From Actinomycetes bacterium (GTDB lineage: Bacteria > Actinomycetota > CALGFH01): a stretch of DNA of 64,000 nucleotides. The notes under the pieces are model-generated. The model worked only from the letters and a program-made list of their open reading frames with translations, was not told the DNA's origin and did not search any database. The position numbers and the translations under genes are program-made. The stretch spans positions 1 through 64,000 of the forward strand of contig DASYUT010000048.1 in the NCBI GenBank assembly GCA_036000965.1. Reading direction: 5' to 3'. Below, in pieces: positions 28,020 to 33,070 of this stretch. Numbering within the stretch: position 1 is the stretch's first letter; the number at the start of each line of letters is the position of its first letter.

Positions 28020-28092
28020 TGTCGGCTCACCCTCCTGCGGCGACCAGACGTTCGGTGCTGCCTCTAGCTGCGGCGGATGTACGTGTCAAGGA

Positions 28093-28480
28093 TCAGCCGA
28101 TGCCCATGATGAACCCGTCCAGCGACATCGTGGTGTCCGCGAAGACCCCCTCCGCCGCTCATCGTCTCCCGTCCTCGGTGAGCTGCCAGGGTGCCTGGCT
28201 CGCCGGCGGAATGTTGTGGTTGAGCCGGAAGAGGAATCCCGTGAAGCCAGCGGGGAAGTTCGAGTCGTCGGTGACCGAAGCGCGGTCCTGCCCGGTGTCG
28301 AACAGGATGAGCCCCCTGGCATGCTCGACGACGTAGGCGTTGACCGGCCGCGGGACGTCAGCAGCCACCAGTACAGCGGCTTTGTGCTGCCGAAGGCATG
28401 CTCCGGGTGGATCTCGACCGTCCCGGTGCTGACGACCGACACCCTGCTCGATTGGTCAGGTCTGCCGAAGCCAGCGTGCC
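28093..28480 (-). pseudogene. decayed segment: MBL-fold hydrolase fragment and a DHFR-like N-terminal scrap
   Basis: Reading the minus strand, one frame encodes VVSTGTVEIHPEHAFGSTKP (about 28460-28400), after which the similarity shifts to another frame, VNAYVVEHARGLILFDTGQD, continuing to a stop at 28159. Together these form the N-terminal third of a metallo-beta-lactamase-fold lactonase-like protein with a frameshift near 28370; the HxHxDH metal motif is lost. Immediately after, 28150-28093 encodes VFADTTMSLDGFIMGIG then stop, resembling the N-terminus of a dihydrofolate-reductase-family protein like the one at 33161. The region is a patchwork of remnants. Confidence 0.6.
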
Positions 28481-28562
28481 ACGCTCCCCAGCAGGCGTCA
28501 GTGACTTCAGTAGCGAATTCGCGTGACCAAGCCCCGGCGATGAGCGCGGCCAACCTGCCCTG

Positions 28563-29300
28563 TCAGGCTTCGGCGATGCCGAGGTCGTCGCGGTCGGCGT
28601 CGGTGAGGTCGGTGAGCAGGTCGATGACGGCGGTCGCGAGAGACTGCTGCGCGCGGCGAGGGATCGTGCGCCCGCTCTCGAACGCCCGCTGGACGGTCCG
28701 TGCGAGCAGGTCCGCCCGCTGGTCCAGGCCGGCCGCGGCGTGGCCGGCGGTCGTCGGTGCTGCGGCGGCCGCCTCCGCCTGCAGGAACCCTTCGAACGTG
28801 GCCTGGAACGCGTAGGCGATCGCGTCGACGTCCAGATCGTCGCGCAGCAGGCCGTGCTCGGCGAGCAGCTCGAAGTAGGTGCGGGACAGCAGGCGGTGCC
28901 GGTCGTCGCGGGCACTGCCGCGGGGTTGGGCCAGCTTGCCCAGCAGGTCGGCGTCGCCCAGGACGAACCCTTGCAGGAGCGGCCGGTTCATGATCGCCAG
29001 GAAGTACGCGCGGGCGAAGCGGTGCAGCAGGCACAGCTGCGGATCCTGGCGCAGCGCCTGCAGCAGCTCGCCGATCGCGTGGAGCACCTCCCGCTCGAAG
29101 ACGGCGGTGAACAGCTCCTCGCGGCTCTTCCAGTGCAGGTAGACGGTGCCCTTGCCGATGTCGGCGCCGGCGGCCACGTCGTCGACGGTCACCCGCCGGT
29201 AGCCGTGTCGCAGCAGCAACGCTGCCGCCACGTCGAGGATCCGCGTGGCACGTTCCTGCCGCTGCCGCGGGTCTCGGAGCCGGTCGACGGTCGCGCTCAT
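28563..29300 (-). CDS. TetR family transcriptional regulator
   Basis: 245 residues from the ATG at 29300. The N-terminal helix-turn-helix is canonical: RILDVAAALLLRHGYRRVTV, DDVAAGADIGKGTVYLHWKS. The ligand domain (about 75-245) is of the long type, with an Ala-rich insertion. An imperfect palindrome at 29313-29335 overlaps its putative promoter, and a matching, more symmetric copy precedes the FAD monooxygenase gene at 30463-30483. This regulator therefore probably represses itself and the monooxygenase. The predicted -10 lies so close to the ATG that the mRNA may be leaderless. Confidence 0.88.
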   Translation of the reverse strand: MSATVDRLRDPRQRQERATRILDVAAALLLRHGYRRVTVDDVAAGADIGKGTVYLHWKSREELFTAVFEREVLHAIGELLQALRQDPQLCLLHRFARAYFLAIMNRPLLQGFVLGDADLLGKLAQPRGSARDDRHRLLSRTYFELLAEHGLLRDDLDVDAIAYAFQATFEGFLQAEAAAAAPTTAGHAAAGLDQRADLLARTVQRAFESGRTIPRRAQQSLATAVIDLLTDLTDADRDDLGIAEA

Positions 29301-29312
29301 GCACCCACCATA

Positions 29313-29335
29313 TGACCAAGTTCGAGTTTTCGTCA
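29313..29335 (-). promoter_or_regulatory. putative TetR operator/promoter for the regulator itself
   Basis: On the plus strand: GACCAA (29314-29319), nine bases, TTCGTC (29329-29334), a 6-bp inverted repeat with one mismatch. Read on the minus strand the site overlaps TTGACG (-35), an 18-base spacer and TATGGT (-10), seven bases or so before the ATG at 29300. Confidence 0.6.
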
Positions 29336-30423
29336 ACTCACAGGGGCAGGGCGGCGCCGCAGCCATCCGGCGGCGGCTCCCAGCGGCCACAGCCGGGTGA
29401 CCAGGTTCCGGGCCAGGATGCCGCGCCGCGTCGCCGGGATGAGCAGCGAGGCGCCCCGCGCGAGGTTCCGCTGCTTGGGGTCCACCAGGGTCCGGTGCCT
29501 GGCCTCGTAGCGGCGGAAGGCCAACCGGTGGTCGCCGGGATTGGCCGCCAGCTCGTCGGCGAGGGTGAACGCCCCCGCCATGGCCAGGGTGGAGCCGTCC
29601 CCGAACAGCGATACGCAGGACGCGGCGTCACCGAGTAGCGCGACCCGGCCGTGCCCCCAGGGGCGCAGACGCACTCGGCTCACGGAGTCGAAGTAGAGGT
29701 CATCGGCGGCGTGGATGCGGCGCAGCAGCTCGGGCACCCGCCAGGAGCCGTCCGCGAACGCGGCGGCCAGCAGCCGCTTGTGCTGGGCGGTGTCGTGGGG
29801 GTCGAAGTCCGGCACCGCCGGGCTTCGGAACGCGAAGAACGCCAGGGCGTCGCCGCGCGACGGGTGGATGGCGACCGCCCTGCCGGGGGTGTTGTGCATG
29901 ATGACCTCCCGCCCCCGTTCGATCAGACCATCCAGACCATCCAGCCGCATGGTCGCGACGTAGAGGCCCATGTGGTGGACGAAGTCGGATTCCGGCCCGA
30001 ATGCCAACCGACGCACCGCCGAGTGCAGCCCGTCGGCGCCGATCACCAGGTCGAAACGGCGTCGGCCTGGTCCCGACTCGCCTGGTACAGGATCGACGCG
30101 AGGTCGCCGCGTGGCAGCTCAACCTCGCGGCTGCCGGCCGCTCGTTGCAGGGCCCGCATGTTGACCCTGCCGACGCGCCGGCCCGTGGCGTTGACGAAAC
30201 TCATGTCCGTTACGTGCGTGCCGGCGTCGCGGATGCGTGGCATGACGCCCATCCGCTCGGCCACGTCCACGGCCCGCCCTCTGACGTCCACTGGACTTCC
30301 GCTGGACCGCAGCGCCCCCGCGTGTTCGACGACGGTGGGATGGAATCCGTGCCGCGCCAGCCAGTACGCCAGCGTCGGCCCGGCGATGCCGGCTCCGGAG
30401 ATCAACACGGTCTGGTTGCTCAT
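29333..30423 (-). pseudogene. FAD-dependent monooxygenase, disrupted by deletion and frameshift
   Basis: The N-terminal frame (30423 to 30043) starts MSNQTVLISGAGIAGPTLAY with the FAD-binding GxGxxG and runs to ELPRGDLASILYQASRD. The C-terminal frame (30050 to 29333) resumes at RRFDLVIGADGLHSAVRRL and contains GRVALLGDAASCVSLFGDGS, the second FAD motif, ending in an amphipathic tail. About 45 residues that normally join these parts are missing and the frames differ, so one intact protein cannot be made. The family hydroxylates aromatic substrates or antibiotics. It remains under what looks like the TetR operator at 30463. Both halves are otherwise well preserved, so the lesion is recent. Confidence 0.8.
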
Positions 30424-30453
30424 GACGCGCTCCTGTCATCGACGCCGTTGCAC

Positions 30454-30486
30454 CTACTGTACGACCAACTTCAACATTTGGTCAAC
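30454..30486 (-). promoter_or_regulatory. putative TetR operator/promoter of the FAD monooxygenase
   Basis: GACCAA (30463-30468), nine bases, TTGGTC (30478-30483): a perfect 6-bp inverted repeat with the same spacing as the site in front of the tetR gene. On the minus strand it overlaps TTGACC (-35), an 18-base spacer and TACAGT (-10), about 33 bases upstream of the monooxygenase ATG. Confidence 0.65.
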
Positions 30487-30996
30487 CGTCATCTGTCACC
30501 AGCATCAGCCGGGTGTGGGGCGCGCGGCGGCGCTACTGCGTTGCGCCAAGCCAGGGCGAGCATCACGGACACCCTGACTGATCCGACCGCGAGGGTGGGC
30601 TGCGTCCGTTGACCGCAGCGTTACCGTGGCGCGCAGATGGCCAGTTTCAGGGTGGCGGGAGGCTGTGTTACCGGCGTTGACCGTCTGGGAGGACCGACGG
30701 GGTGGAGATGCTCGTCGGGCAGTGGATTGCCGAGAGGATCGGGCCTGTGCCGGTTGATGGATGTGACGGTTGGGTCTCAGGCGGCCTTGCCCGCTGCGTT
30801 CCGGGCAACTGATGCTGGGCCTGCCTGTGCGCGTCGTCTTCCTCCCACACGAGTGGCTTGGCGTGGACAGGCCGAGCGTCCGGCTCTTGGACTACCGGGT
30901 AGCGATAAGGGCCCGCCACGGGTGGGTTGGATGGACCAGAGCACGCTGCGGCAGCTCCGGCCTCTTGGCAGAGGCACACCTCAAGAGGGAGATGAC
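30487..30996. other. spacer with no recognised gene
   Basis: About 510 bp between the divergent FAD monooxygenase promoter and the YCII gene. Short open frames exist on both strands but show no family signature or ribosome site. The promoter for the YCII-ECF operon should lie in its right part; I could not identify it with confidence. Confidence 0.4.
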
Positions 30997-31359
30997 ATGA
31001 AGTACATTCTGCTGATCCGGAACAACGCCGATTTCCTGGAGTCGCTGTCTGCGCAGGAACGCGACGGCATCATGGCCGACGTCGATAAGATCGTAGCTGA
31101 GCTGAGGGAGACCGGGGAGTTTCTCGGCGGCCAGGCGCTGGGACACCCGTCGAACACCAAGACCGTGCGGGTCCGTGATGGGCTGCCGGTGACGATCGAT
31201 GGGCCGTTCGCTGAGGCTAAGGAACAGCTGGCCGGGTACCTCATCGTGGATGTGGAGACCGAGCAACGTGCCCTGGACATTGCCGCCCGCTGGCCGGATG
31301 CGCGGTTTGGCGCCATGGAGGTCCGCGCGATCATGGATGAGACGGGGACGGAGATGTGA
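30997..31359 (+). CDS. YCII (DGPF) family protein, partner of the ECF sigma factor
   Basis: 120 residues; ATG preceded by AAGAGGGAG. MKYILLIRNN at the N-terminus and the conserved VTIDGPFAEAKEQLAGYLIVDVE segment (the DGPF motif) identify the YCII/DGPF family. Such genes are repeatedly found beside ECF42-type sigma factors, and that is the case here: the stop overlaps the GTG start of the sigma gene. A second, partial YCII gene lies at the left edge of the window. Function in the sigma-factor system is not established. Confidence 0.88.
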   Translation: MKYILLIRNNADFLESLSAQERDGIMADVDKIVAELRETGEFLGGQALGHPSNTKTVRVRDGLPVTIDGPFAEAKEQLAGYLIVDVETEQRALDIAARWPDARFGAMEVRAIMDETGTEM

Positions 31360-32573
31360 CGGCTTCCGGTCCGCCCGAGGATCTGCTGCGCGATCTCGTG
31401 CCGCAGGTCCTCGGCACCCTTATCGACCGCTACGGCCAGTTCAGCGAGGCTGAGGACGCGGTGCAGGAAGCACTGCTCGCCGCGGCCCAGCAGTGGCCAC
31501 ACGACGGCGTGCCGGGCAACCCGCGCGGCTGGCTGGTCACCGTGGCATCGCGGCGGCTGGTGGACCAGTGGCGCAGCGACGACGCCCGCCGGCGCCGCGA
31601 GGAAACCGTGGCGGCAATTGCACCGGCGGGCCAGGCGGAGGTCCCCGGCACCGATGACACGCTGAAACTGCTGCTGCTGTGCTGCCACCCGGCGCTGTCA
31701 GCGCCGTCGCAGGTGGCGCTGACGCTGCGCGCGGCCGGTGGGCTGAGCACCGCGCAGATCGCCCGGGCGTTCCTGGTGCCGGAGGCCACGATGGCCCAGC
31801 GGATCAGCCGGGCCAAGCAGGCCATCAAGGCCGCGGGGGCCACGTTCACCCTTCCGCTGCCGGCCGAGCAGGCGCAGCGGCTGCGGGTGGTCCTGCAGGT
31901 CCTGTACCTGATCTTCAACGAGGGTTACACCACCACCTCCGGGCCGCAGCTGATCGATACCGGCCTGACCGGCGAGGCGATCCGGCTCACCCGGACGCTG
32001 CGCCAAATACTGCCGCACGACGGTGAGGTGACCGGGCTGCTGGCGCTGATGCTGCTGACCGACGCCCGCCGCGCCACCCGCACCGCCGGTGACGGCGGCC
32101 TCATCCCCCTGTCCGAACAGGACCGTTCCCGCTGGGACCAGCGGTCCATCGCCGAAGGCATCTCCCTGGTCAGCGGGACGCTCTCGCACGGGCCACTGGG
32201 GCCGTATCAGCTGCAGGCCGCCATTGCCGCGGTGCACGCCGAGGCCCCGACGGCCCAGGAGACGGACTGGCCGCAGATCCTGGCCCTCTACAGCCTGCTG
32301 GAACGGATGGCGCCCAATCCCATGGTGCGGCTCAATCACGCGGTCGCGCTGGCCATGGTCAAAGGCCCGCAAGCCGGACTGGATCTGTTGTCCACTTTGG
32401 AGGAAGCACTCTCCGGCCAGCACCGGCTCGACGCGGTGCGGGCGCACCTGCTGGAGCTGGCCGGAGACATGCCAGCGGCGAAGGCCAGCTACCAGCGCGC
32501 CGCCAGGCGCACCAGAAGCCTGCCCGAACAGCGCTACCTCACCGGGCGGGCGGCCCGGATAGCGGCAGGCTGA
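31356..32573 (+). CDS. ECF42-type RNA polymerase sigma factor with C-terminal extension
   Basis: 405 residues from a GTG overlapping the YCII stop. Region 2 (about 12-80) includes YGQFSEAEDAVQEALLAA and GWLVTVASRRLVDQWRSD; region 4 (about 115-165) has ALTLRAAGGLSTAQIARAFL and ATMAQRISRAKQAIK. The remaining 230 residues, with QVLYLIFNEGYTTTSG and tetratricopeptide-like helices (LALYSLLERMAPNPMVRLNHA), are the DUF6596-type extension typical of ECF42, which has no classical anti-sigma factor and is thought to be controlled through this extension. It likely transcribes its own operon. Confidence 0.9.
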   Translation: MTASGPPEDLLRDLVPQVLGTLIDRYGQFSEAEDAVQEALLAAAQQWPHDGVPGNPRGWLVTVASRRLVDQWRSDDARRRREETVAAIAPAGQAEVPGTDDTLKLLLLCCHPALSAPSQVALTLRAAGGLSTAQIARAFLVPEATMAQRISRAKQAIKAAGATFTLPLPAEQAQRLRVVLQVLYLIFNEGYTTTSGPQLIDTGLTGEAIRLTRTLRQILPHDGEVTGLLALMLLTDARRATRTAGDGGLIPLSEQDRSRWDQRSIAEGISLVSGTLSHGPLGPYQLQAAIAAVHAEAPTAQETDWPQILALYSLLERMAPNPMVRLNHAVALAMVKGPQAGLDLLSTLEEALSGQHRLDAVRAHLLELAGDMPAAKASYQRAARRTRSLPEQRYLTGRAARIAAG

Positions 32574-33070
32574 GGCGGGCGGCCTCGGCGACTGCGCCCG
32601 GGACGCCCGCCAGCGTGGTGTCGGCCATCCCACTGCGGTAGACAGCCGCTCCGACACTGCCCAGGATGGCCAGACCCAGGGTGGAGCCGAACACGTTGCT
32701 GGTCTCCGACAGCGACGCCGCAGACCCGGCCCTCTCCGGCGGGGCGGACCCGACGACCATGCCGGTGCCGAGCGCGAACAACGGTCCCACACCGAAGGCG
32801 GCCACGGCGACGCAAACCACCACGGTCAACAACCAGCCCGACCTGCCAGCCTGCGTCAGCACGAGCAGGGCGACCGCAGAGCACACCAACCCGGCCAGCA
32901 TGGGCCGGTCACCAGCAGCAGCACCATGACCGGCACACCCAGCAGGAACACCGAGCCCACCAGAAGTACTCCAACATGACCCCACTAACGATCGGGCCCA
33001 GCGCCGAGCCGCCGAACAGGCAGGCCGTCCACAACGAAATGGTCAGCCCCCGCTGCCGGTCGAAGTCCGC
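32539..33070 (-). pseudogene. DHA2-type MFS exporter remnant (frameshift and internal deletion)
   Basis: The minus strand from 33070 reads RQRGLTISLWTACLFGGSAL and LGPIVSGVMLEYFWW in one frame, then GSVFLLGVPVMVLLLVTG in another (frameshift near 32965), then jumps to the protein's C-terminal third (MLAGLVCSAVALLVLTQAG to PLSGPPAR, stop at 32539). Roughly 190 residues between helices 6 and 11 are gone. The tail overlaps the 3' end of the sigma factor gene by 35 bp. Confidence 0.7.

Follow-up and report, generated by a model that had tools for sequence, protein, structure and literature searches.

Introduction

A TetR-family protein whose gene lies near a divergent enzyme gene is usually the repressor of that gene (PMC3511530). 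The same paper describes the SCO7222/SCO7223 pair of Streptomyces coelicolor, in which a TetR-family repressor lies beside a monooxygenase and palindromic operators are found near both. This arrangement resembles the locus studied here; however, the S. coelicolor genes are divergent and their operator (TGGAACGNCGTTCCA) is present three times, and the two systems are likened here by layout. In the enteric TetR/TetA system, as recounted there, two palindromic operators likewise serve the regulator and its neighbor, but the operators are 15 bp long, the target is an efflux pump, and the genes are divergent. According to PMC6143652, MabTetRx/MabTetX of Mycobacterium abscessus comprises a TetR-family repressor of an operon with an FAD monooxygenase that belongs broadly to the class of the one considered here, whereas its operator is 35 bp, its operon has two genes, and its inducer is tetracycline. 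SbtR of Thermus thermophilus (PMC4948773) is a TetR-family protein that also reads TGAC...GTCA arms, but in a 14-bp site (TGACYRNNYRGTCA) with the arms closer together. Among the literature matches listed, no published TetR operator matching the palindrome of the present locus was found; in the mycobacterial survey PMC4482099, motifs are given as logos. Here, we describe a tetR gene and a FAD monooxygenase gene in a 64,000-nt stretch of actinobacterial DNA, hereafter the window.

Results and Discussion

The preliminary description had placed two matching sites, one perfect and one with a single mismatch, over the promoters of the two genes. The positions and sequences of both were reread and found to be correct (Table 1), and their identical placement over TTGACS-18 bp-TAYRGT elements was confirmed on the minus strand. 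Both palindromes lie between the -35 and -10 boxes of TTGAC-N18-TAYRGT promoters, with 3 bases overlapping the -35 box in the minus-strand reading. These were the only sigma-70-like promoters in positions 28400-30700, where 0.1 were expected. Despite its one palindrome mismatch, the tetR operator fits GACCAAN9TTSGTC exactly. The regulator belongs to the TetR family, as its N-terminal TetR_N helix-turn-helix domain scores well above the cut-off.

Table 1: Positions of the tetR and FAD monooxygenase features in the window
Feature	Position	Strand	Remarks
tetR operator, GACCAAGTTCGAGTTTTCGTC	29314-29334	.	Predicted site; palindrome, 1 base off perfect 6-9-6
Monooxygenase operator, GACCAACTTCAACATTTGGTC	30463-30483	.	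Predicted site; perfect 6-9-6 palindrome
tetR promoter, TTGACG-N18-TATGGT	29307-29336	-	Predicted leaderless
Monooxygenase promoter, TTGACC-N18-TACAGT	30456-30485	-	Leader with AGGAG-like ribosome site, then ORF
tetR (P0001), 245 aa	28563-29300	-	Pfam TetR_N, 56.8 bits (cut-off 24)
FAD monooxygenase, N-terminal part, first frame (P0003)	30043-30423	-	Early stop; FAD_binding_3 positions 3-111; NF005761 positions 2-119
FAD monooxygenase, C-terminal part, second frame (P0002)	29333-30046	-	FAD_binding_3 positions 153-320; NF005761 positions 150-377
Deletion junction	30046-30061	-	93 nt in most relatives vs 14 nt here; 79 bp missing, out of frame

At up to 2 mismatches, GACCAAN9TTSGTC matched the window 10 times against 4.8 expected, and 4 of 100 shuffles scored equally high; the short motif is thus non-discriminating at this threshold. 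The whole genome (draft assembly, 358 contigs, 4.19% contamination) gave 20 forward and 16 reverse matches at 1 mismatch versus 26 and 28 for the control, which is background level, and the regulon could therefore not be defined by the short motif at 1 mismatch. In the genome scan for GACCAAN9TTSGTC that had been proposed as a check, exact matches were confined to the two window sites. A 30-bp promoter-operator composite (TTGACNRANNNTYNNANNTNGTCRTAYRGT) was drawn up after the window sites and those of relatives had been seen, and at up to 3 mismatches it matched the 6.47-Mb genome in the two window places only, with no control matches. Because the composite was written with these sites in view, it matches the window by design, and the result lies in its absence elsewhere.

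For the comparison with other genomes, the best 80 of 462 candidates encoding a relative of the TetR protein were used; 31 of these loci (L040-L070) are near relatives and the remaining 49 are more distant. The 150 bp preceding the tetR match contained a 6-9-6 palindrome with at most 2 mismatches in 57 of the 80 relatives compared with 10 of 4032 control windows, supporting the earlier view, based on shared spacing and promoter overlap, that a repressor site is very likely. The palindrome was found in 0.4% of shuffled upstream regions, and 23 of the 80 relatives had no site at this threshold. The loci with the palindrome include distant ones in which it is further away from the start codon. 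Among the near relatives, the full promoter-operator geometry was detected in 29 of 31 tetR promoters and 28 of 31 divergent-partner promoters (control, 1 match in 473,862 strand-bases). An operator in the promoters of both regulator and neighbor, as is characteristic of an autoregulated TetR, occurs in the window and in 26 of the 31 near relatives. Taken together, the comparison with relatives strongly supports a putative TetR operator embedded in both promoters of a small regulon.

Two single loci are worth describing. The closest relative, an Actinoallomurus MAG, apparently has one shared operator, not two, in a 79-bp divergent intergenic region (L043:540-640). In genome G095, the palindrome at a tetR relative of 42% identity shares the core but extends still further and is nearly perfect (L009:1421-1451), and no monooxygenase lies beside it within the 3.6-kb locus.

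The tetR ATG lies 6 nt past its -10 box in the window, and this start position is conserved in relatives. In the 29 near relatives with the geometry, the first in-frame start follows the -10 box by 6 nt (22 loci), 7 nt (6 loci), or 4 nt (1 locus); the geometry was also present at tetR in 16 of the 49 more distant loci, 13 of which have 6-7 nt between the -10 box and the start. The tetR mRNA had been predicted to be leaderless or nearly so, and since 28 of the 29 near-relative starts fall 6-7 nt past the -10 box, the comparison lends good support to this prediction.

Two kinds of enzyme gene accompany the regulator in relatives. The divergent neighbor of tetR is a relative of the window's FAD monooxygenase gene in 22 loci and an NmrA-like gene in 10 loci, including L041 and L052. 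The composite was searched at up to 2 mismatches in 35 relative genomes (22 + 13), which cover the 36 loci L040-L075 except L043. Six matches lay away from tetR, and five of these were at monooxygenase or NmrA-like promoters: one at an unlinked monooxygenase (G406), two at a divergent monooxygenase/NmrA pair (G418), one at the NmrA-like gene of another such pair (G419), and one at an NmrA-like gene (G420). The sixth, in G412, is without the right arm, and G425, one of the set of 13, gave no composite match at all at this threshold. There were four unlinked monooxygenase homologs with more than 60% identity. The composite is found with 0-1 mismatch at two of them (both 74%), that of G419 (74%) has 4 mismatches with the GAC and GTC arms kept, and at that of G404 (64%) the composite is absent. 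Of 26 less similar monooxygenase loci (L157-L182; six further matches were left out), 25 had nothing under 6 mismatches, and the exception, L164, adjoins the tetR pair of G406. In a regulator tree built by a quick method, the NmrA-linked regulators were nested in the monooxygenase-linked group, and the partner genes of tetR therefore appear to have been exchanged. No NmrA-like gene was detected in the genome of the window at E values up to 1e-20, an empty answer that shows little.

The monooxygenase is intact in 24 of 25 related loci that contain both parts. In the window, no complete FAD_binding_3 domain (PF01494) is found in a single frame; the domain is spread over two frames with a 79-bp gap, and either part by itself exceeds the Pfam cut-off. 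About 26 residues directly before the GADG motif are lost. The first frame ends in a stop codon that overlaps a GTG of the second frame, which in turn has its stop codon within the tetR -35 box. No close second copy of the monooxygenase was detected in this genome at E values up to 1e-30, nor was a second close copy of tetR at E values up to 1e-20. As the target is truncated and frameshifted here, the working regulon in this genome may be tetR alone. The monooxygenase of Peterkaempfera griseoplana (L055:2728-3866) is out of frame as well, through a different lesion. Unlike MabTetX, the window enzyme falls far below the tetracycline-destructase cut-off; this identity was rejected, as NF033476 requires 550 bits and the intact relative L045 scored 240 bits and the two window parts 114 and 81 bits.

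Could the lesion be an artifact, with the enzyme in fact intact? The draft state and contamination of the assembly would allow for such an error, and the P. griseoplana gene is frameshifted as well; however, the loss of 79 bp is atypical of base-calling error and the neighboring genes also look decayed, so that we consider an assembly error unlikely. It is scarcely credible that the split gene yields a functional enzyme as two translationally coupled polypeptides. The overlapping stop and GTG codons and the recognizable FAD_binding_3 sequence in both parts would suit such an arrangement, but stop/start overlaps of this type are common by chance, the residues before GADG are gone, and no relative is split in such a way.

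The best explanation of the locus, and in our view a highly probable one, is that TetR represses its own leaderless promoter and the FAD monooxygenase promoter via the spacer palindrome and is released by a small molecule. A TetR dimer would occupy the 21-bp palindrome, whose family form is about GACCArATTTsrAATyTGGTC, between the -35 and -10 boxes, where it would directly block RNA polymerase at both promoters. The releasing molecule may be what the monooxygenase acts on or something chemically related, and the enzyme family suggests that it could be aromatic or polyketide-like. Binding, repression, ligand, and transcript start are inferred. In this genome, the targets of TetR are most likely reduced to its own gene and a dead monooxygenase gene, because 79 bp were lost out of frame, the monooxygenase lies upstream in tandem, and no terminator was seen between the two genes.

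A shared or duplicated promoter with no repressor would also produce two similar sequences, since the -35 and -10 boxes belong to the shared sequence and the short motif by itself is near background. Nevertheless, the arms are conserved within the spacer, a region in which sigma factors have no sequence requirement, and the palindrome accompanies this TetR clade in the 57 loci mentioned above, distant ones included, which makes this explanation highly improbable. That another TetR-like protein binds the sites, or that this TetR activates, also seems quite unlikely. Binding by this TetR is a prediction, and some TetR-family proteins are activators (PMC3511530), but the palindrome goes with the orthologous tetR genes of many genera and its location between the -35 and -10 boxes fits a repressor. 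Repression by this TetR hence remains our preferred reading. TetR regulators that control their own gene together with an oxidoreductase are a well-known kind of system, and the reading of this locus as one of them is well supported. Its lineage-specific features are a seemingly dead target and an altered gene order.

The small regulon first proposed, consisting of the regulator and the FAD monooxygenase, held with respect to the operator in both promoters, but the monooxygenase is broken here and relatives add the NmrA-like gene. Most interesting is that three shuffled genes carry the promoter-operator cassette in conserved form. We think it rather probable that tetR, the FAD monooxygenase gene, and the NmrA-like gene, each with its own near-identical 30-bp cassette, can be re-paired, inverted, or scattered with joint control kept; that the repressor start is held 6-7 nt after the cassette as a conserved, leaderless, self-limiting mRNA; and that the cassette has outlived its target here. 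For this TetR clade, which occurs in many actinobacterial genera, the analysis yields an operator sequence that can be put to the test and two targets of enzyme type. The shuffled pairings offer a natural test of how small regulons survive rearrangement, and this genome represents one end point, with the sites retained and the target apparently dead.

The monooxygenase and tetR genes stand in tandem in the window, with no divergent neighbor within 200 bp, whereas they are divergent in all 22 relatives in which they are adjacent. The tandem arrangement would be explained if one of the genes had been inverted together with its promoter. No flanks shared with the relatives compared that could tell which gene was inverted were found beyond the pair, as only general families (e.g., ABC ATPase) match. 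The taxonomic order comprises three genomes; the same rearrangement was not found in close kin, and no regulator homologue was detected in the other two genomes at E values up to 1e-60. Because these two genomes are without such a regulator, the pair was likely acquired from other actinobacteria.

Downstream of tetR, positions 28086-28553 (minus strand) hold a two-frame remnant with no Pfam match and a decayed look, which we take to resemble part of a metallo-beta-lactamase-fold hydrolase. An MFS transporter fragment at 32539-32985 (minus strand; MFS_1, under the Pfam cut-off) is apparently truncated. At 31000-32573 (plus strand), a YCII-domain gene overlaps a gene for an ECF sigma factor that ends in a DUF6596 domain, an arrangement like that of ECF42 pairs.
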